This document shows positions 34,554 through 44,749 of a stretch of DNA of 64,000 bases, one piece after another (positions within the stretch are counted from its first letter, which is position 1; each line of letters begins with the position of its first letter). The DNA is from Okibacterium fritillariae. Lineage in GTDB: Bacteria; Actinomycetota; Actinomycetes; Actinomycetales; Microbacteriaceae. The notes under the pieces are model-generated. The model saw nothing but the letters and a program-made list of their open reading frames with translations, was not told the DNA's origin and ran no database searches. The position numbers were made by a program, and so were the translations under genes. The DNA lies in NCBI RefSeq assembly GCF_900167575.1, contig NZ_FUZP01000001.1, positions 372,001 to 436,000 of the forward strand. The letters run 5' to 3'.

Positions 34554-35288
34554 TCACCGCTCTTCGTGTGGTTCTCCGTCGGGGTTCGCGTGGCGCCCGC
34601 GGCGCGCCTCGTGGGGCTGCACGCGCCCGTCGGCGAGCCGGATGACCTGATCGGCAACGGCCTCGATCTTCGGGTCGTGCGTCGAGATGATCGCGGTCGT
34701 CCCCTCGGCGCGCACGACATCGCGCAACAACGTGAGCACGCTGGCACCCGTGTCGGCGTCGAGCTGCCCCGTCGGCTCATCCGCGATGAGCAGGCGCGGT
34801 CGACCCGCGAGCGCCCGCGCGATGGCCACGCGCTGCTGCTGCCCACCCGAGAGCTCGCCGGGCCGCTGCTGGGCCTGGGCCCCCAGGCCCACGAGGTCGA
34901 GGTAGTGCGCCACCCGCTCCTCGCGCTCAACAGGGTCGAGCCGGCGCAGTCGAAGAGGCAGGCTCACGTTCTCGGCCGCGGTCAGCAGGGGCAGCAGGCC
35001 GAACGTCTGGAACACGAAGGCGATCTTGTCGCGGCGCAAAGCCGTGCGGGCGCGGTCGTCGAGGGTGGCGACATCCGTGCCGTCGACGATCACGCGGCCC
35101 GAAGTTGTGGTGTCGAGGCCGCCGATGCAGTTGAGCAACGTGGTCTTGCCGGCGCCCGAGCGACCGACCAAAGCGGCGATGCGACCCGGCTGGATGCTGA
35201 ACGACACGTCCGAGAGCGCGTCGACCGTGCCCGTGCCCGACGGATACGTGCGCGTCAGGTTCTCGACCTGGATCATGGCGTCGGTCAT
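34554..35288 (-). CDS. ABC transporter ATP-binding protein, MacB/LolD type
   Basis: 244 residues. Walker A GRSGAGKT, Q-loop FQTFGLLP, signature LSGGQQQR, Walker B LLIADE, and H-loop STHD. The arrangement matches the LolD/MacB/FtsE-like group that powers FtsX-type permeases rather than importers. Its start overlaps the stop of the preceding ATPase (ATGA). The C-terminal 25 residues are charged and divergent. It probably serves one of the two large permeases upstream. Confidence 0.9.
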   Translation of the reverse strand: MTDAMIQVENLTRTYPSGTGTVDALSDVSFSIQPGRIAALVGRSGAGKTTLLNCIGGLDTTTSGRVIVDGTDVATLDDRARTALRRDKIAFVFQTFGLLPLLTAAENVSLPLRLRRLDPVEREERVAHYLDLVGLGAQAQQRPGELSGGQQQRVAIARALAGRPRLLIADEPTGQLDADTGASVLTLLRDVVRAEGTTAIISTHDPKIEAVADQVIRLADGRVQPHEARRGRHANPDGEPHEER

Positions 35289-36346
35289 CGTCCGGTCTCC
35301 TCGGAGTCGGTGGAGTCGGTGGAGTCGGTGGAGTCAGGGGAGTCGGTGCGGGCGCGCCGGGGACGCCGGAACGGGGAGAGGGAGGGGTCGTCGGCGGCGG
35401 TCTCCGGGGTGTCGACGGGCTCGGCAGCGCGGTCTGCGAACACCCCCACGTGGTCGCTCTCGAGCTCGAGTCGCACCCGATCCCGCAGGCCGAGCCGCTC
35501 GCGATAGGCCGCGGGCACCTGCATGCGGCCGGCCCGGTCGAGCAGCGCGAACTCCTCGGCGTGCACCGTCTCGGCACCCGCGTCGTCGACGACCGTGCGG
35601 CGCACCACCTCGGTCGAGGTGCGGCCATCCCGAATCGCGATCGTGCGCTGCACCCGCCCGGACACCGCGGCGTCGTGCGTGACGATGACGACCGTCGTGC
35701 CCAGCACCCGGTTGGCCGTGCGCAGCGCATCGAAGACATCGTCGCTCGTGGCCGAATCGAGCTCACCCGTCGGCTCGTCGGCGAGCAGCACGGCGGGCTC
35801 GTTGGCCAGGGCCACCCCGATCGCGACGCGCTGCTGCTGCCCACCCGACATCTCGTGCGGGCGTCGCGCCGCCAGCTCGGCTATGCCCAGGGCGTCGAGC
35901 ACCTGCGCCGTGCGTTCGCGGCGACGCGCGCGAGAGGCCCCGGCGAAGCTGAGCGCCAATCCGATGTTTTCGGCGGCCGTCAGGTAGGGCAGCAGATTCT
36001 TGGATGTCTGCTGCCAGATGAATCCCACCACCTCGCGGCGATAGTGCACCCGCTGTCGCGCGCTGAGCGTGAGTAGGTCGTGCCCCGCAACGGTCGCGCG
36101 CCCGGCCGTCGGCAGGTCGAGCCCCGACAGAATACCGAGCAGCGTCGACTTGCCCGACCCCGACGCCCCCACGATGGCGACCATCTCGCCGGGCTGCACG
36201 ACGAGGTCGAGCCCCTGCAACGCCTGCACCTCGATCGACCCGGTCTGGAAGATGCGCACGATGTTGTCGCACACGATGACGGCGTCGGCGCCGTAGGCCG
36301 CGGCTCCCGGAGCCCTCGCGGCCGGCGTGATCACAGGTTCGGTCAT
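35285..36346 (-). CDS. ABC transporter ATP-binding protein with C-terminal AbrB-like domain
   Basis: 353 residues from the ATG at 36346, which overlaps the permease stop. Residues about 24-245 are a MacB-type ATPase: Walker A GASGSGKST, Q-loop WQQTSKNLLPY, signature MSGGQQQR, Walker B VLLADE, H-loop VTHD. Residues about 264-304 read FALLDRAGRMQVPAAYRERL and then GLRDRVRLELESDHVGV. This fits the SpoVT/AbrB swapped-hairpin pattern (D-x-x-G-R, IP/VP, R-x-x-L-G-L, D-x-V). A low-complexity tail with TDS repeats follows. Such a domain is not normal in this ATPase family, and its purpose is unknown. Confidence 0.85.
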   Translation of the reverse strand: MTEPVITPAARAPGAAAYGADAVIVCDNIVRIFQTGSIEVQALQGLDLVVQPGEMVAIVGASGSGKSTLLGILSGLDLPTAGRATVAGHDLLTLSARQRVHYRREVVGFIWQQTSKNLLPYLTAAENIGLALSFAGASRARRRERTAQVLDALGIAELAARRPHEMSGGQQQRVAIGVALANEPAVLLADEPTGELDSATSDDVFDALRTANRVLGTTVVIVTHDAAVSGRVQRTIAIRDGRTSTEVVRRTVVDDAGAETVHAEEFALLDRAGRMQVPAAYRERLGLRDRVRLELESDHVGVFADRAAEPVDTPETAADDPSLSPFRRPRRARTDSPDSTDSTDSTDSEETGR

Positions 36347-39108
36347 GAGCTCTCTCCTACTCGAAGAACGGTCGGCAAGGCGCGGCGGTTGGCGGCCACG
36401 CGCTCGCCCAGGATGGCCGCGGCGAGGGTGAGGATGATTCCGGCGGCGGCCACGGCGAGCGTCGCCTGATCGAGCACCATCGCGGTCTCCTCGCGGCCCG
36501 TCAGAATGTCCAACCCGAGCGACGGCCCGACCAGATACAGGATGAGCGCCCCCGCGCCGACCCCGCCGAGGAACGCCGCGAGGGCCACGGGCAGGGTCTG
36601 CGCGAGCGCGAGCCACCAGCCCGCGCCGCGCTCGGCCCCGAGCGTGCGCATCAGGGCGACGTCGCGCACGCGGCCGCGCGCTTGCCCCAGCACCGCCGCC
36701 GCAACGGCGAGCATCGCCAGCGCGAAGGCGGCCCCCGCGGCCAGCTGCATGGTGTGCGTGGTTCCCGCGATCAACGCCGAACCGCGCCGCTCGGCCAGCC
36801 AGCCGGCCCGCGTCTCGACCTCGGCGTCCGGGCCGAGGCTCGCCACGGCGCTGGCCGCCCCCGCGCCGTCGACGACGATCGTGGTGGCCGGCAGGGGGGT
36901 GCCGACGGCATTCGAGAGGGCGTCGAGGTCGACGAGCAGACGTGAGCCCACCTCATCCGTCTGCCCGGCGAGGGGCACGTCGAGCGGGCCGACCAGATCG
37001 AGCTCGACCATGCGGTCGTTGATGTCCACGCTCAAACCGGCCTCGCCGTAGCGCTCGATCAGGGCGGCGTCGGCCAGCGCGCGCACGGGCGCCTCGACCT
37101 CGCTATACGAATCCTCACCCCTCAGTGAGCGGATGTCCGTCGCCGTCGTCCGATAGTCGGGATCGTCGGGCCGCCCACCGATCAGGCGCTCCGAACCGGC
37201 GGTCACACCCGTCACGCTCACGAGCGTGCTGCCGCGGTCACCCGTCGCGTCGACGCCGCGCAACACCAGGCGGGCGCCCGCGGCCGTGACATCCGGCGAC
37301 CCCTGCACCCGCGTGACGTCGTCGGGCGTGAACGAACCGTCGGCGCGCGCATCGCCCCCGACGGCCAACCAGGAGGCGTTCTCCTGACCGCTGTCGACCG
37401 TCGCCGCGAAACTGCCGCCCGCGAACAGGATGCCGACGGCCAGCGTGGCGGCGAAGACGGGCAGGAGGGTGGGCGTGCGCTCGAGCTGGGCCGCGATCAG
37501 CAGGCCGGCGATTCCGCGGGAACGGCGAGCGGGTCGGAGTGCCGGGCGGAGCGCGAGGGGCAGCAGTCGGGCCGCCGCAACGGCCACGCTCGCCGCGATG
37601 AGGGCGGGGGCGATGGCGACGAGCGGGTCGACGCCGAGGGCGCCGGGCGCGAATGCCGAACCCGGTCCGCCGCCCGTCGGGCCTGCAGGAAGCGCGCCGC
37701 GCTGCACGACGGCCACCACGGCCGCGAGCGTCACGGCACCGAGCAGGGCTTCGAGCACGAGACGTCGGCGCCCCTGCATCCGAGCGGCCCGTCGTCGTTC
37801 GCTGGGATTCGCCACCCGCCGGCTCGTGGGCCAGGCGGCGCGCGCCACCCGGACGGCCTGCACGACGGGCACGGCAATGGCGACGAGGCCCACGAGGGCG
37901 ACCACCCACCACAGCGTGCCCGGGCCGGGGAAGACGAGGCCGGCACCACCGACGCCGACGACGGTGGCGAGGGCCGTCGTCACGACCGCCTCGACGCCCG
38001 CGCGACATCCGATGCCCACGAGCGACGTGCCGCGTGCGCGTTCGAGTGTGAGGCCGGCCGCGCGGCGCGCCGTGAGCAGCGCGCTGGCGAGCACCAGTAC
38101 GGTGATGGCGGCGACGAGCATGCCCGCGATGGCGATCGTCATCTGGGCCGTTGCCGCCGAGGCGGCCGGCGGATAGTCGGCCAGCGCCGCCTCGAAGCTC
38201 GACTGCGCGAGCAGGGTGATCGGCTCGCCGGGGGTGAGATCGGCTGCCGTGCCCTTCAGCGCATCGATGTCCTGCGCAACGCGTGTCACGAGGTCCGCCG
38301 TGAACCCGTCGGGGTCGAGCGTCACGCGAATGCCGGCCGGCACGGGGTCGACCAGGGCCGCCGTGACGCGCGTCATGGCCTCCGGGTCGATGAGAACCGA
38401 CACCTGCTCGGTTCTCGGGCGGCCCGTTCCGACCACGGGTTCGCCGTCGGTCTCGTCGGGCCACAGGTTCGGGATGTCGATCCACGACGCCCGCTGGTCG
38501 GCAGGGGTCTGGCCCGCGTCCGGTGCCACGAGGGCCGAGACCCGGATGTCGAACGCATCCGTCGCCGTCTCGAGACGCAGCACCGAGCCCACGTCGGCGC
38601 CGATACGGCGCGCGGCGACGGCGGACAGGGCGACCCTGATGGGCGCATCGTCCGATGCGCCGGCGGTGGCACCGGGCAGCTCGCCGCGCTCGACGACGAG
38701 ATGTCCGCGGCCATCCGGCGTGAGGGCGGCGAAGCGCATGCCCACCTCGACGGGGGCTCCGACCACATCCACCGCTTGCGTCACCGCGAAGGGAAGGGCC
38801 GACTGTGCCACGCCGCGCAGGGCCGGGGGCAGCCGCTCGGGGATCAGCGGGGCGAGATCGATGACCTGCTGCGCGGTGACCGGGGTGGAACCCGTGCCCG
38901 GCAGATCGGCGATGAGGTTGCTGCCCAGCACGAGGTCGGTGCTGCGCCCCGCCGTGGCAACGGCTTCTCGGGCACCGCGGTCGACGGTGTCGTGCACGAG
39001 CCGCGGGGCCGCGCAGGCCAGGAACACCGTGACCGCCGCGATGAGGGCGGTCAAACCGAGCAATCCGAGGTCGCGCAGGGCGCGCCGCAGAATCAGGACG
39101 ACGCTCAT
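36343..39108 (-). CDS. FtsX-type ABC permease (large)
   Basis: 921 residues from the ATG at 39108, overlapping the upstream stop (ATGA). Hydrophobic segment after RRALRDLGLLGLTALIAAVTVFL, a long extracytoplasmic region, a central membrane block around residues 430-620, a second extracytoplasmic region and three C-terminal membrane segments with the FtsX feature LMRTLGAERGAGWWLALAQ. The layout is two FtsX repeats in one chain, like the permeases of antimicrobial-peptide or lipoprotein export systems. It works with the two downstream ATPases. Confidence 0.87.
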   Translation of the reverse strand: MSVVLILRRALRDLGLLGLTALIAAVTVFLACAAPRLVHDTVDRGAREAVATAGRSTDLVLGSNLIADLPGTGSTPVTAQQVIDLAPLIPERLPPALRGVAQSALPFAVTQAVDVVGAPVEVGMRFAALTPDGRGHLVVERGELPGATAGASDDAPIRVALSAVAARRIGADVGSVLRLETATDAFDIRVSALVAPDAGQTPADQRASWIDIPNLWPDETDGEPVVGTGRPRTEQVSVLIDPEAMTRVTAALVDPVPAGIRVTLDPDGFTADLVTRVAQDIDALKGTAADLTPGEPITLLAQSSFEAALADYPPAASAATAQMTIAIAGMLVAAITVLVLASALLTARRAAGLTLERARGTSLVGIGCRAGVEAVVTTALATVVGVGGAGLVFPGPGTLWWVVALVGLVAIAVPVVQAVRVARAAWPTSRRVANPSERRRAARMQGRRRLVLEALLGAVTLAAVVAVVQRGALPAGPTGGGPGSAFAPGALGVDPLVAIAPALIAASVAVAAARLLPLALRPALRPARRSRGIAGLLIAAQLERTPTLLPVFAATLAVGILFAGGSFAATVDSGQENASWLAVGGDARADGSFTPDDVTRVQGSPDVTAAGARLVLRGVDATGDRGSTLVSVTGVTAGSERLIGGRPDDPDYRTTATDIRSLRGEDSYSEVEAPVRALADAALIERYGEAGLSVDINDRMVELDLVGPLDVPLAGQTDEVGSRLLVDLDALSNAVGTPLPATTIVVDGAGAASAVASLGPDAEVETRAGWLAERRGSALIAGTTHTMQLAAGAAFALAMLAVAAAVLGQARGRVRDVALMRTLGAERGAGWWLALAQTLPVALAAFLGGVGAGALILYLVGPSLGLDILTGREETAMVLDQATLAVAAAGIILTLAAAILGERVAANRRALPTVLRVGESS

Positions 39109-42100
39109 TCGGGCGCCCCTTCCCGCAGCAGCCGGGCCGGTTCGACCAGACGCTGCGTGGCCCAGACCGCCACGACGACCGCGCCGACCACGACGAGGAG
39201 CTCGACGATCAGCAGGGCGATCGGCGCCGCGGGCAGCACCACGCGCACCGCGGGCACGGGCGGCGCGCCCGTGGGGGACACCGAGACGAGCGGCCCGAGT
39301 AGCTGGGCCAGCACCACACCGCTCACGACGCCGAAGAGGATGCCGATCGCGCTGAGCACACCCGCCTCGATCGACACCGTCGAGAGGATGCCGCGGCGCC
39401 CGAATCCCACGGCGCGCAGTTGCGCGAACTCGAGTCGTCGCCGGCGCAGCGAACCCGCGCTGTGCATGCCGAACCCGATCGCGAGCAGCACGGCGCTCGT
39501 GATGATGGTGAGCCACAGGGCGGCCTGCGTGCCGATGCGCAGCGGGCCCTCCTGCAGCGAACGGGTGACGCCGTCGATGCTGATGCTGACGGCGGAGTTG
39601 GCGGCCTGCTCCTGGCGCACGACGTAGGCCTCGCCCGACCCCGCGGGCACGTCGACCCACCACTCGTCGAGCAGCGTCCCCGCCGCCCCATACTGAGCGA
39701 GCGCTCGCGCGAGCGATTCGCTATCGGCCACGAGGTACACACCGCCCGCGGCCGATCCGTCCGAACTGGTGGCCGCCAACCCCGCCGTCCCGCCGACGAG
39801 GGTGCGGGCCTCGACCGCCCCCGGCACGGCCGGGGCCATGCCGGCGACGGCCGAGGGGATGGCCGCGTCGCCCAGGGTGAGCACGAAGGGGGCCGCGAGC
39901 CCGAGACCCAGCCGCGTGGCCTGATCCGTCGGCACGACCACGGGCAACGCGGTCACGGGCTCCCACGCCACCAGCGACGCGACGGCACCGGTGCCCGCGA
40001 GGTCCTGCGGCAGGTCGACGCTCACGGCGAGGGCCGGCGCGGGCGACGGCGACGGCGCAGGCGCCGAGACGACCGTCGGCACTTCCGCCTGGTAATCCGA
40101 CGTCACTCCCGCCCACCCGATCAGGGGCGCGATGTCGAGAGCCACGGGTGCCGCCTCTCGAGACGAGCGCGCGCCGGCATCCGAGAGAATCATGCTCACC
40201 GGCAGCCGCGACCCGCGCAGGGAACGTGTGGCGGGCTCGCCCTCGAAGCGCAGTTGCAGCCCGACGAGCGTGCGCTCCGCCGAGGGCTGCGAGAGGGGGC
40301 CGAGCAGCGCGTGCGGTTGCCCGTCGAGATCGGCCGTGCCGAGTGCATCCACGGTCACAATGCCGGCCGCATCGACCGTGATGGCCGACACCGTCGCCCG
40401 CACGCCGGTCGGAGTATCGGCGGGGTCGGCCGTGGTCGGAAGAGCCGTCACGGTCACGCCCATCCAGGTCACATCGTCGTCGATAGCGATCCCGTCGAGG
40501 GCTTCGCCGGAATCGTCCGCGTCGTCGCGCGGGGCGAGCGCGCTGGCGATCTCGGTGCCACCCTCCTCTCCGAGGCGGCCCGCGTCGATCAGCTGCCGCG
40601 CGGACTCGTCGAGCCCCAACACGTGCACGCGCGAACCGGAGGGTGCGGCGTCGTTCCACGAGGCGACCGCATCTCGTCGCAGGGCAGCCGAGGGTGAGGT
40701 GCCGGATGTCGCGCCGACCGCGAGCGCCTCGGCCTGCTCACTCGGGGCCCGGCCGTCGGCCACCAGGCGCACGGGTGGGCCCACCGCGAACGCCGCCTGA
40801 TCGGCCTGCGACTGCCGCCACGTGTCGAGGAATGAGACGCTGAAGATTCCGACCGCCAGGGTCACGGCCACGAGGAGCACGGCCGCGATCGACGAACGTG
40901 CTCGTCGCGCGAGTTCCCACGACGCCAGCGCGGAGGCGGCACCCCGGGCGCGCCGCGAACGTCGCTCGGCCGCCGCGGAGACGAGGGGCATGAGTCGCAG
41001 GCACAGGAGCACGGCCCCGAGTAGCACGATCGCGGGGGCCACCGCCGCGATGGGGTCGACGCCCAGGGTCCCCTCGCGCACGGTGCCCTGCAGGCGGAAC
41101 AGTTGCAGGGCCGCGACGACCGCCACGGCGATCACGGCGAGGTCGAGCCCCGAACGCATGAGCGGCGCGAGGCGCCCGGCCCGCGCGGCCGAGTCCTGCT
41201 CGGCGTCGAACTCGGCCTCGGCCCCGCGACGCACGAGGAGGGGAGCCGACACGATCGCGACGAAGACGACCGCGACGCCGGCCGCCACGAGCCAGGCCGC
41301 GAGCGGGATCGAGGCGGTAGCCGGCATCCGGGCGGCCCTCATGGCGGGAACGGCAGCCATGGCCTGATAGACGAGCGCGCCGAGTCCCGGTGCCACGAGG
41401 GCCGTGACGATCGCGACGCTGACCGCCTCGAGGCCCACGAGCGCACCCACCTGGGCGGGGGACGCGCCGCGCGAACGCATGAGGCGCCGGTCGACGATGC
41501 CGCTCTCGGTCATGAGCCGCGCCACCTGCACGAGAGCCGTGACCGCGAGGAGGGCGAGGAGCACGCCCGAGACGGCGACGACCGTGCGGGTGACCAGGAT
41601 GCCGCCGCCGACCGCGTCGAGGGTCTGGGGGAGTTCGGTCGTGAGCGCGACGGTCGTGGCCTGCCGGCCGACGGCCGACGAGAAGGAGACGTCGGCGTCG
41701 ACCAGCCGCTCGCGCAGCGGCGACAGCGCCGACTCGTCGACGGCCGTGAAGTCGGGGCGGAAGATCGTTTCGGCAAACGCGGCCGAGACGTCGCGCGCCT
41801 CGAGCGTGCCCGGGGCGGCGAGCAGCGGCCCGATCGCGACCACGGGTTCGTAGCTGCGCTGGCCGGGTTTCGCGAAGCCTATGTGTGCGCCGCCGCCCTG
41901 CAACGGATCGATGGCCCACTGCTCGGCGGGGGCCTGGGCGCTGGCCTCGGCGAGGCGGTAGAAGCCGCTGATGCGCAGTGCCACATCGCCCCGCGTGGTC
42001 TGCACGACGAGCTCGTCGCCGATTGCGAGTCCGACGACCGTGCGCGCGGCCTCGGGTGCCACGACCGATCGATCGTCGCTCGCCCACGCGCCGTCGACGA

Positions 42101-42536
42101 GGCTCGTTCGGCTCTCGGCGTCGGTGAGCTCGCCGACCGAGGCATACACCGCGGTCTCGGCGACGAGCGGGGAGCCCGTGCGCGTGACCGGTCGCAGCGC
42201 CGATTCGGTGAGCGTGAACCGCTCGGTCGGGATGTCGGGGCCCAACACATCCGCGGCCGTGTCCGCGAGCGTCGCGTCGAGCTCGGTGAGCGAACCGCTC
42301 GGTCGCAGCAGATCCACCGTAAGCGACGTGGCGGCGGGGTCGGTGTCGGTGAGCCCACCGCGCAGAGCCCCGGCATCCGACGAGGCGGCCAGCACGGCCA
42401 GCGCGCTCAAGAGGGTCGCGACAAGCACGAGCACGGCCGTGACGGTGCCGAGAAAACGCCACCGGAACGCGGCCCGACGCGCGAACACCCGCAGCAGGTA
42501 CACGCCATCGCGTGAGGGGTGCGCATCGGCGGGCAT
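39105..42536 (-). CDS. FtsX-type ABC permease (very large)
   Basis: 1143 residues. First membrane segment FLGTVTAVLVLVATLLSALAVL, large extracytoplasmic domain, central membrane block with RLMRSRGASPAQVGALVGLEA (FtsX motif), second extracytoplasmic domain and C-terminal block with FAQLRAVGFGRRGILSTVSIEAG. The start at 42536 is supported by a TATGCT -10 box six bases upstream (leaderless type); an upstream in-frame ATG would add 38 unrelated residues. It is the first gene of a four-gene operon running to 34554. Cargo is unknown; envelope lipids, lipoproteins or peptides are likely. Confidence 0.87.
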   Translation of the reverse strand: MPADAHPSRDGVYLLRVFARRAAFRWRFLGTVTAVLVLVATLLSALAVLAASSDAGALRGGLTDTDPAATSLTVDLLRPSGSLTELDATLADTAADVLGPDIPTERFTLTESALRPVTRTGSPLVAETAVYASVGELTDAESRTSLVDGAWASDDRSVVAPEAARTVVGLAIGDELVVQTTRGDVALRISGFYRLAEASAQAPAEQWAIDPLQGGGAHIGFAKPGQRSYEPVVAIGPLLAAPGTLEARDVSAAFAETIFRPDFTAVDESALSPLRERLVDADVSFSSAVGRQATTVALTTELPQTLDAVGGGILVTRTVVAVSGVLLALLAVTALVQVARLMTESGIVDRRLMRSRGASPAQVGALVGLEAVSVAIVTALVAPGLGALVYQAMAAVPAMRAARMPATASIPLAAWLVAAGVAVVFVAIVSAPLLVRRGAEAEFDAEQDSAARAGRLAPLMRSGLDLAVIAVAVVAALQLFRLQGTVREGTLGVDPIAAVAPAIVLLGAVLLCLRLMPLVSAAAERRSRRARGAASALASWELARRARSSIAAVLLVAVTLAVGIFSVSFLDTWRQSQADQAAFAVGPPVRLVADGRAPSEQAEALAVGATSGTSPSAALRRDAVASWNDAAPSGSRVHVLGLDESARQLIDAGRLGEEGGTEIASALAPRDDADDSGEALDGIAIDDDVTWMGVTVTALPTTADPADTPTGVRATVSAITVDAAGIVTVDALGTADLDGQPHALLGPLSQPSAERTLVGLQLRFEGEPATRSLRGSRLPVSMILSDAGARSSREAAPVALDIAPLIGWAGVTSDYQAEVPTVVSAPAPSPSPAPALAVSVDLPQDLAGTGAVASLVAWEPVTALPVVVPTDQATRLGLGLAAPFVLTLGDAAIPSAVAGMAPAVPGAVEARTLVGGTAGLAATSSDGSAAGGVYLVADSESLARALAQYGAAGTLLDEWWVDVPAGSGEAYVVRQEQAANSAVSISIDGVTRSLQEGPLRIGTQAALWLTIITSAVLLAIGFGMHSAGSLRRRRLEFAQLRAVGFGRRGILSTVSIEAGVLSAIGILFGVVSGVVLAQLLGPLVSVSPTGAPPVPAVRVVLPAAPIALLIVELLVVVGAVVVAVWATQRLVEPARLLREGAPE

Positions 42537-42681
42537 AGGCGAAGCATAATGCGCAATCGAGCGCGCATCGGCACCGCCGCGACGGCGACCGTCCGGGCAG
42601 GCAGCGCCGTGCCGGACCGCGCCAGTCGTCTTCCGTGTTCGCGCTTCCATCCCCGGCTTTGCCGACGCCGCGTCGAGTGCA

Positions 42682-42687
42682 TAGGGT
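42682..42687 (+). promoter_or_regulatory. -10 box of the two-component operon
   Basis: TAGGGT ends 7 bases before the GTG at 42695, the usual spacing of a leaderless transcript. No good -35. The messenger would therefore begin at or near the short leader reading frame rather than at the kinase start. Confidence 0.45.
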
Positions 42688-42694
42688 CAACCGT

Positions 42695-42748
42695 GTGAAC
42701 ACGTTCGAGGCGACCCGACCCGGCCACCCGCCGCGGTGCGCCGCATGA
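42695..42748 (+). CDS. possible 17-residue leader peptide coupled to the kinase gene
   Basis: GTG-initiated frame encoding MNTFEATRPGHPPRCAA, ending in a TGA that overlaps the kinase ATG (ATGA). It starts 7 bases after a -10 box, as leaderless genes do, and the kinase itself has no Shine-Dalgarno sequence. Translation of the leader could therefore deliver ribosomes to the kinase start. No known attenuation motif is present in the peptide. It may be chance in GC-rich DNA. Confidence 0.35.
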   Translation: MNTFEATRPGHPPRCAA

Positions 42749-43998
42749 TCGACCTCCTGCGCGACCGCCGCCGGCTCATCCTCGCCGATGTCGCCACCGG
42801 CCTCGTCGTCGCGTTGCTGGCCGTGTTCCCGCCGCTCGAGGTCAACGCCGCCGGCATCCTCACCGCCCTGCTCGCTTTCGTGGCGATCGGATGCCGCAAC
42901 GTCTCGCCCCTCGCCAGCCTCGCGCTCGTGTGGCTGCTCGCCATCGCCCAGCTCGTCCTGAGCGAGCGCCCCGGTTTCGCCGACCTGGCCCTCCTCCTCG
43001 TGCTCTACGCGTGTGCCCGCCGCGGAACCCGCTGGGAGTTGGGCGCCGCAGCCGTCTCGGCCATCGCGGGCGGCGTCATGGCCTCCTCATATCTGACGCA
43101 GACGGGAACGCGCTACGCCCAGATGGCCTACGGCTCGACCGAGGGGCAGATCGCCGCGTCGGTCGCACCCGTCGTCGTGCTCGCATCCGCCTGGCTGTTG
43201 GGTTTCGCCGTGCGGGCCCTGCGCTCGCAGCGCATCGAGGCCGGCCGACGCGTCGAGGCCGAGACCGAGATGGTGAAGGCGCTCGACAGCGCCGAATTCG
43301 AGCGGTTGCGGGCCACGATGGCGCGCGACGTGCACGATGTGGTGGGCCATTCGCTGGCCGTGATCATCGCGCAGGCCGACTCGACCGAATTCATCCACGA
43401 CGAGGCTCGGCTGCGGCAAGTATCGGCGACCATCGCGGCCACGGCCAGGCGTTCGCTGCTCGAGGTGCGGCAGGTGCTGAACGGCGACCCGGCGGCGGGC
43501 ATCGACGACGAGACCATCGACCTGGATGCCCTGATCGAGCAGGTTCGCGAATCGGGCGTCGCCATCGAGCGCGTCGTCCGGGGCGAACCGCGCCTGCACG
43601 ACGCGGGGCTGCGGCTTGCCATTCGCCGCGTGGCGCAGGAGATGTTGACGAACGCCATCCGACACGGGGATGCGCGTGAGCCCGTGGCTTTTCGCGAGAC
43701 CTGGCGCGCGCAGGACGTCGTCATCGAGGTAGAGAATCGAGTGGGACTCACCCGCAACCCCGGCTCGGGGTCGGGAGTCCGTGGAATGCGCGCACGCGTC
43801 GAAGGGATGGGCGGCATGTTGGAGGCCGAGGCCGTTGACGGCGTCTACACCGCGCGGGCGCGCATCCCGGCGCCGGCCTCTGCGTCTGCGTCTGCGCTGG
43901 CACCCGGGTCGGCTTTGGAGTCGGCACCCGCGGCGGCGACTGTGACTAGGTCGCCCGCTTCTCCGGCGTCGTCGGCGGGGGCGGTTCCTCATGGGTGA
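42745..43998 (+). CDS. sensor histidine kinase, NarL-partner (HisKA_3) type
   Basis: 417 residues. Four or five N-terminal membrane segments (about 10-155) with no large external domain, then dimerisation box RATMARDVHDVVGHSL with phospho-acceptor His197, and an ATPase domain with N-box RRVAQEMLTNAIRHG and G-box GSGSGVRGMRARVEGMGG. The last 40 residues are Ala/Ser/Pro-rich. Lack of an external domain fits intramembrane sensing of envelope stress. It overlaps the response-regulator gene by 8 bases. Divergent from the FtsX permease operon, which is its likely target. Confidence 0.92.
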   Translation: MIDLLRDRRRLILADVATGLVVALLAVFPPLEVNAAGILTALLAFVAIGCRNVSPLASLALVWLLAIAQLVLSERPGFADLALLLVLYACARRGTRWELGAAAVSAIAGGVMASSYLTQTGTRYAQMAYGSTEGQIAASVAPVVVLASAWLLGFAVRALRSQRIEAGRRVEAETEMVKALDSAEFERLRATMARDVHDVVGHSLAVIIAQADSTEFIHDEARLRQVSATIAATARRSLLEVRQVLNGDPAAGIDDETIDLDALIEQVRESGVAIERVVRGEPRLHDAGLRLAIRRVAQEMLTNAIRHGDAREPVAFRETWRAQDVVIEVENRVGLTRNPGSGSGVRGMRARVEGMGGMLEAEAVDGVYTARARIPAPASASASALAPGSALESAPAAATVTRSPASPASSAGAVPHG

Positions 43999-44749
43999 CG
44001 CCGGGCCCATCCGCATCCTGCTCGTCGACGATCAGGAGCTGTTCCGCGGCGGCGTGCGCGTGGCGCTCGAGGCACAGCCCGATTTCGCGGTCGTGGGTGA
44101 GGCGGCGAACGGGCGTGAGGCGTTGCGCCTGATCGACGAGCTCGGGCCCGACGTGGTGCTGCTCGACATCCGGATGCCGGTGCTCGACGGTGTCGAGACG
44201 GTGCGGGCGATCTTCGGGGCCGGGGCCGATGGAGCGACTGCGGATGCCAGCGCAAGCGCCCCTGGCGCACGCCCGGATGGTGAGGTGGGCTCATCTGCGA
44301 GCGGAGCCATCTCGCGCAAACCCCGCGTCATCATGCTCACGACCTTCGCGCTCGACCGCGCCGCCGCGACCGCGATCCGGCTGGGCGCGAGCGGATTCCT
44401 GCTCAAGGATGCGACGCCGAGCTTCCTGGCCGAGGCCATCCGCACCGTGCACGCGGGCAACACCGTGCTGGCGCCCGACGAGCTGTCGCAGCTGTTCTCG
44501 GCCGATGTGCAGCGTGCCGCGCCCACGCCGGCGCCCGAGATCTTCCGCCAGCTGAGCGTGCGCGAGCGGGCCGTCTTCTTCGCCGTGGCGCAGGGTGCCA
44601 CCAACGCCGAGGTGGCCGAGCGGCAGTTCATCAGCGAGTCGACGGTCAAGGGCCACGTCTCCAGCATCCTGAGCAAGCTTCAGCTGCGCGACCGCGTGCA
44701 GCTCGTCGTCTTCGCGCATGACCACCGGCTGACCGAAGACCGGGTCTGA
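43991..44749 (+). CDS. response regulator, NarL/LuxR type
   Basis: 252 residues. Receiver domain with acidic pair D13/D14 (LLVDDQELFR), phospho-acceptor Asp59 in VVLLDIRMPVLDG, and Lys139 in GFLLKDA. The C-terminal LuxR HTH is LSVRERAVFFAVAQGATNAEVA...STVKGHVSSILSKL. An Ala/Gly/Ser-rich insert of about 35 residues (76-110) sits in the receiver just before the fourth beta strand, where NarL proteins have only a short loop. It is the cognate partner of the overlapping kinase and probably activates the adjacent ABC export operon. Confidence 0.92.
   Translation: MGDAGPIRILLVDDQELFRGGVRVALEAQPDFAVVGEAANGREALRLIDELGPDVVLLDIRMPVLDGVETVRAIFGAGADGATADASASAPGARPDGEVGSSASGAISRKPRVIMLTTFALDRAAATAIRLGASGFLLKDATPSFLAEAIRTVHAGNTVLAPDELSQLFSADVQRAAPTPAPEIFRQLSVRERAVFFAVAQGATNAEVAERQFISESTVKGHVSSILSKLQLRDRVQLVVFAHDHRLTEDRV

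Follow-up and report, generated by a model that had tools for sequence, protein, structure and literature searches.

ATPase2, one of two ABC ATPases encoded by a transporter operon of Okibacterium fritillariae, appears from its sequence to be an otherwise ordinary ATPase of the type VII (FtsX/YbbP-like) transporters that carries an extra domain behind its nucleotide-binding core. This tail almost certainly belongs to the AbrB/MazE/MraZ swapped-hairpin superfamily, on the evidence of its predicted fold, of profile comparisons and of genome searches made blind. The fusion is a new combination of known parts; no description of an AbrB- or MraZ-tailed ABC ATPase was found among the matches listed in a search of open-licence papers. 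The reading we favor, with a probability of roughly 0.55, is that the tail acts as a C-terminal dimerization or regulatory domain, comparable to the tails exchanged between subunits in FbpC or MlaF, and most likely does not bind DNA.

The window, a stretch of 64,000 nucleotides (contig NZ_FUZP01000001.1, positions 372,001 to 436,000), holds the operon in the order permease B, permease A, ATPase2, ATPase1 (Table 1). Both ATPase junctions are 4-base ATGA overlaps, the start of ATPase2 overlapping the stop of permease A, and an overlap of permeases B and A at 39105-39108 follows from their coordinates. The ABC motifs of ATPase2 are intact (Walker A, Q-loop, signature SGGQ, Walker B, and H-loop) and its core matches PF00005 with 113.5 bits. 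Among NCBIfam models those for MacB and LolD rank on top; in the PDB, LolD is one of the best matches, outranked by an Rv1281c importer ATPase. In its motifs and its similarity to LolD and MacB, ATPase2 has the features by which a type VII (MacB/LolD/YbbA) ABC ATPase is recognized.

The first-pass annotation had noticed behind this core the motif spacing D-x-x-G-R, VP, Y-R-E-R-L-G-L and R-V-x-L of an AbrB/SpoVT-like domain. The residues concerned, 264-304, map exactly to positions 35557-35435 and read EEFALLDRAGRMQVPAAYRERLGLRDRVRLELESDHVGVF..., with D-x-x-G-R, VP, YRERLGL, and RVRL all found. The tail is conserved nearly as well as the ATPase, the linker and the C-terminal extension less so, with mean majority-residue frequencies of 0.771 for the ATPase, 0.717 for the tail, 0.563 for the linker (residues 248-262) and 0.283 for the extension. 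The last comprises 49 acidic, repetitive residues that are not kept by relatives: its DST-repeat end (window 35300-35350) is without counterpart in the aligned sequences, and Demequina and Cellulomonas relatives carry other long proline-rich or low-complexity extensions at the end of ATPase2.

Table 1. Features of the tailed ATPase, its operon and the divergent regulator genes, with positions in the window.
Feature	Position	Strand	Description
ATPase1	34554..35288	minus	244 aa, ABC ATPase without tail; co-occurs with tailed ATPase2
ATPase2	35285..36346	minus	353 aa; ABC nucleotide-binding domain at residues about 23-247
C-terminal extension of ATPase2	35288..35434	minus	Residues 305-353, DSTDSTDST..., acidic, low complexity; not conserved; model confidence mostly very low
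AbrB/MraZ-like domain of ATPase2	35435..35557	minus	Residues 264-304; from family alignment, profiles and predicted fold
Beta-hairpin linker of ATPase2	35558..35623	minus	Residues 242-263, GRTSxEVxRR... up to the first AbrB strand; predicted strands run on into the domain
Permease A	36343..39108	minus	921 aa, FtsX-type; 10 hydrophobic segments, of which 1 and 7 are each followed by a long stretch; YbbP-like topology
Permease B	39105..42536	minus	About 1143 aa, FtsX-type; 11 hydrophobic segments, layout as in permease A
Histidine kinase	42736-43998	plus	HisKA_3 and DUF7134; divergent from operon
Response regulator	43991-44749	plus	LuxR-type; divergent from operon

Taken alone, the window tail is suggestive but stays under the curated cut-offs of both the MraZ model (PF02381; 18.8 against 23 bits) and the AbrB model (TIGR01439; 22.9 against 28.3 bits), and relatives were therefore collected. 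As a family the tails fared better than the single copy, with 28 of 29 non-redundant tails matching the MraZ model and 15 of 29 the NCBIfam AbrB model (E<=1; best about 1e-5). The relatives were the best 80 of at least 574 from a scan of public genomes, ranked with the tail inside the query, and two of the six patterns of the search were placed at or beside the tail. Because this ranking favored tailed proteins, the occurrence of D-[RAH]-x-G-R-x-Q-x-P behind the ATPase in all 80 of them as well as in the window (the motif in locus L056 being counted after reading-frame correction) is no measure of the frequency of tails among ATPase relatives. Across the 81 family rows D270, G273, R274, Q276, P278, L285, and R290 are invariant and R271 is present in 79; eight columns are invariant in the alignment of the 29 non-redundant rows. 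The superfamily signature, D-x-x-G-R-x-x-x-P followed by a helix and an R-V-x-L-type strand, is found in the tail.

A blind search of 296 genomes from the phylum with a 44-residue profile of the tail, from which the ATPase was excluded, gave matches in 63, and 30 loci were fetched. Eight genomes, including that of O. fritillariae, gave E<1e-20, and all eight matches are fusions. One of the next 22 fetched loci, L124, is again an ABC fusion, the most divergent one, and at E<=0.01 no Pfam model of AbrB type matches it. Twenty of the other 21 were scanned; these non-fusion loci comprise 15 MraZ, four MazE_antitoxin and one SRP-type GTPase (L126), the last of which shows that the profile makes chance matches at E about 1e-4. 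Conversely, the Pfam MraZ model run over the organism's own genome at E<=1 gave three matches, one to each half of the genuine MraZ and one to the tail (E=0.018). In profile-profile comparison the tail scored 53.7 with MraZ-C, 47.0 with MazE and 31.8 with MraZ-N, scores reached by none of 200 column shuffles each, although the test is partly circular because the MraZ and MazE rows came from loci found by the tail profile. Judged by profile, the second half of MraZ is the nearest relative of the tail. MraZ (1n0e) was also the best, though weak, match of a PDB profile search (E=0.15), the second being an adenylate cyclase (E 0.55) that was taken as chance; a phmmer search of the PDB with the window tail alone returned nothing but 3opc, a weak match (E 0.27) to an unrelated protein. 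Together, the MraZ and AbrB model matches, the blind phylum search, the own-genome MraZ scan and the profile-profile shuffles rule out a chance motif. The tail was filed neither as an AbrB family regulator nor in the MraZ family, given the cut-offs above and, for MraZ, its being a single half with no tandem pair.

A single-chain AF2 model of residues 240-311 (72 residues, 81 sequences) reached a pLDDT of 81 and has the order strand-strand-helix-strand-strand, as in AbrB. Nineteen PDB entries matched it with a Z-score of at least 2, and 17 of these are by name AbrB, Abh, SpoVT, MazE, VapB, MraZ, or Sso7c4; the remaining two (5itj and 5itm) are named 'histone-like protein' and are presumably archaeal AbrB-like proteins. 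The Z-scores (maximum 4.8, typical of a very small domain) were obtained by realigning Foldseek's own list, Foldseek alone giving a best E of 0.41 with a probability of 0.99 and no significant match. The AbrB/SpoVT-like assignment made at first pass is thus backed by the predicted fold as well as by profiles and blind genome searches.

The tailed ATPase is real, and it is not peculiar to the Okibacterium genome in which it was first noticed. In a survey of 296 genomes of the class with a C-terminal profile (E<=0.001), 56 gave a match, one of them (G420) weak, and the fusion was counted in 55; among the 30 class loci fetched, the tail lies in frame behind ABC motifs in 29, while L170 failed the pattern. 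Plasmid records yielded four matches at E<=1e-60 that aligned through residue 305 or beyond, with annotations that, where present, read merely "ATP-binding protein". One of these plasmid copies, from Paenibacillus cellulosilyticus (Bacillota), has 46% identity over ATPase and tail and is the one among them in which the tail itself was read. In a tree of 72 ATPase cores all 38 tailed proteins form one group, a single change, with support of 82/56 when the very long L124 branch is included and 98/91 for the other 37. Because the tailed proteins group in this way, the fusion seems to have arisen once and long ago, and its architecture has been conserved. The L124 protein (808-1614), a diverged ABC ATPase, comes from another part of the phylum; its sequence stops immediately behind an AbrB-like tail with G-R-x-Q-x-P, and it is possibly an older branch of this architecture. 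Genomes G539, G616, G669, G672, and G691 hold another tailed ATPase besides the first, with a weaker score (E between about 1e-20 and 1e-23), and in the first three of these ATPase1 lies within about 1 kb of the second tailed copy and not of the first.

The untailed ATPase1 proteins form their own group of 22 in the tree, Paenibacillus included (support 97/83). ATPase1 adjoins ATPase2 on the same strand in 32 of the 67 loci with enough sequence, and an opposite-strand ATPase1 lies nearby in at least five further loci (L041, L054, L068, L088, and L105; >200 bits). These five are among 30 loci with an opposite-strand ATPase1-like gene, of which 23 score 86-112 bits and one (L098) 141, the gene in L097 being cut by the locus end. 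The low-scoring genes were not counted as ATPase1: four Streptomyces ones placed in the tree fall far from it, and that of L035 is, as we take it from its sequence, an EttA-type protein. In other Streptomyces ATPase1 is found away from the tailed gene, and for five Streptomycetaceae loci (L035, L036, L044, L051, and L061) the best ATPase1 relative (58-64% identity) is located beyond the ends of the fetched sequence. An ORF that is presumably dUTPase-like was observed in three Streptomyces-type loci (L180, L182, and L183), about 1 kb upstream of an ATPase1 relative distant from the tailed ATPase2.

The association of the two ATPases was followed in 150 genomes of the genus of G403, taken as Streptomyces by relatedness (tail E<=1e-15, ATPase1 E<=1e-70). 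Tail and ATPase1 were found together in 84, the tail only in five, ATPase1 only in three and neither in 58 (Fisher value 1e-31, which ignores relatedness). Where both are present, the genes lie within 20 kb of each other in 28 genomes, on one contig but more than 2 Mb apart in 23 and on different contigs in 33. The class sample gave ATPase1 at E<=1e-70 in 39 of 56 tail genomes and in none of 240 others; some of the 17 tail genomes without it at this threshold may hold a diverged ATPase1, and absences in the genome searches are not certain because only part of the first-look candidates was scored. Near-strict co-occurrence of genes that are often unlinked suggests that ATPase1 and ATPase2 belong to one machine with two different ATPases, that is, to an ATPase1:ATPase2 pair.

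Permeases A and B both match PF02687, and each looks by its sequence like a full YbbP-type permease, so that the FtsX-type partner with 4 or 10 helices that marks a type VII transporter is present. A same-strand permease match occurs near the tailed ATPase in 62 of the 67 loci with enough flank. The P. cellulosilyticus plasmid operon (NZ_CP054609.1, 3317-10444; L175) encodes ATPase1, an HlyD-like adaptor, an FtsX/MacB permease, the AbrB-tailed ATPase2 and, last, a family-1 solute-binding protein. Exporter-type and importer-type parts are combined here in an unusual way, and the operon is flanked on either side by transposase genes. It has a single permease (nine segments by the same count method), yet both ATPases are kept, which fits an ATPase1:ATPase2 heteropair. 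In the Okibacterium window the divergent two-component pair (42736..44749) possibly regulates the operon; a regulator match is present in only four of 80 related loci.

The barrel of the AbrB superfamily is a swapped dimer. The N-terminal domain of AbrB is described as a stable one (PMC4022651), and two ABC ATPases offer precedents for such an arrangement: in FbpC each ATPase exchanges its C-terminal domain with the other (PMC2896483), and in MlaF the tails clasp the neighboring subunit, their loss being largely rescued by an artificial dimerizer (PMC7367683). On the strength of these precedents we propose that two tails would intertwine into one barrel below the ATPase and hold two ATPase2 subunits together, a clamp that may set the resting distance of the subunits or stabilize the assembly. 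Were an ATPase2 homodimer to sit on the permease, the clamp would lie within one transporter; were it an ATPase1:ATPase2 pair, the clamp would bridge two, since a heteropair brings one tail per transporter and makes a clamp within the transporter impossible. The latter version, in which each 10-helix permease holds a heteropair and a swapped-hairpin dimer staples the permease A and permease B transporters into a double machine, is possible but on the doubtful side. We infer the dimerization of the tail, its one-transporter or bridging arrangement and any regulatory effect; the tail model is of a single chain, which cannot show a swap. A monomeric tail that packs on its own ATPase core and merely stabilizes it, its AbrB ancestry being a relic, would agree with single-chain models that fold the tail with moderate confidence, but it is highly improbable given the stable swapped dimer of the AbrB N-domain (PMC4022651) and a set of invariant residues that consists of the fold signature and Q276, unlike that of a decaying relic.

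The residues of the tail bear on the two remaining alternatives. An AbrB-like dimer exposed by the state of the ATPase might bind the operon promoter or other sites and so couple transport to expression, as the first-pass annotation had envisaged; MraZ and AbrB are described as DNA-binding, and the arginines of G-R and D-R are conserved in the tails. In AbrB the arginines proposed for DNA contact are R8, R15, R23, and R24 (PMC4022651). By our own alignment to AbrB, the 81 tails have alanine, valine, or threonine at R8 in every case, keep R15 in all, and have arginine at R23 in 26 and arginine or lysine at R24 in 12. R15 alone is therefore kept, and its invariant equivalent, R274, is also part of the fold motif. 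Q276, two residues after G-R, is present in all 81 tails and also in those of Paenibacillus and L124, whereas its equivalent is absent from 25 aligned MraZ/MazE halves. Because three of the four AbrB arginines are lost and an invariant glutamine is specific to the family, the surface of the tail has probably been reused, which makes DNA binding unlikely. Net charge is uninformative here because the MraZ C-halves share the mean of the tails (-1.9 in both). No MraZ-type repeat array was found in 42530-42760, upstream of the operon, where a single pair of 11-mers and some weak inverted repeats were all that turned up, and the ATPase would be expected to stay tied to its membrane partner. Feedback from transport to expression through DNA binding thus finds no support in these data, and we consider it improbable.

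The same glutamine, being conserved in the tails and absent from the MraZ/MazE halves, amounts to conservation beyond the shared fold signature and would suit a docking or sensing site, in which a protein or small ligand binds the barrel face through Q276 and R271 and switches the ATPase, dimerization being a by-product. MlaB, which switches MlaF (PMC7367683), sets an example of such control, but no partner or ligand is known for the tail, the neighbor-gene comparison having covered six window proteins, and we hold this explanation to be somewhat unlikely.

If the tail does act as a dimerization or regulatory domain, a transcription-factor fold built into a transporter ATPase would clearly exemplify how a DNA-binding module can be put to new use in clamping proteins together. 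The type VII transporters, a group with many members not yet characterized, would then gain a C-terminal regulatory domain of a new kind. Should the stapled arrangement hold, a bacterial transcription-factor fold would serve as a clamp between transporters. The co-occurring, often unlinked ATPase genes make subunit pairing directly testable, and the invariant glutamine and lost arginines single out the exact residues to mutate.

Among known systems, the second half of MraZ (PF02381) resembles the tail in D-R-x-G-R...P, the next helix and the closing strand (D-H-x-x-x-W in 1n0e), which align over about 40 columns. The tail differs in being one half with no tandem, in sitting behind an ABC ATPase and in its invariant glutamine two residues after G-R. 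The N-terminal domains of AbrB and SpoVT (1z0r, 2w1t) share the G-R signature and match the predicted fold with Z 4.6-4.7 over 45-49 residues, but the tail is without R8, R23, and R24 and lies at the C-terminus of an ATPase. As C-terminal additions to ABC ATPases, the MlaF extension and the C-terminal domains of FbpC, MalK, and MetN are comparable, those of FbpC and MlaF being described as swapped; however, what is added in these proteins is an OB/TOBE fold, a ferredoxin-like domain or just a peptide. The types named in the passages drawn on here from a survey of ABC ATPase C-terminal domains are hairpin, ferredoxin-like, R-domain, and TOBE, with no AbrB type among them (PMC7367683). YbbAP, a type VII transporter whose 10-helix permease holds two ATPases and has a large domain behind each of helices 1 and 7 (PMC12646458), shares with the window system its permease layout and separate ATPase subunit. 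In YbbAP, as described there, these are two copies of one ATPase, whereas the system reported here has two different ATPases, one of them AbrB-tailed, and usually two permeases.
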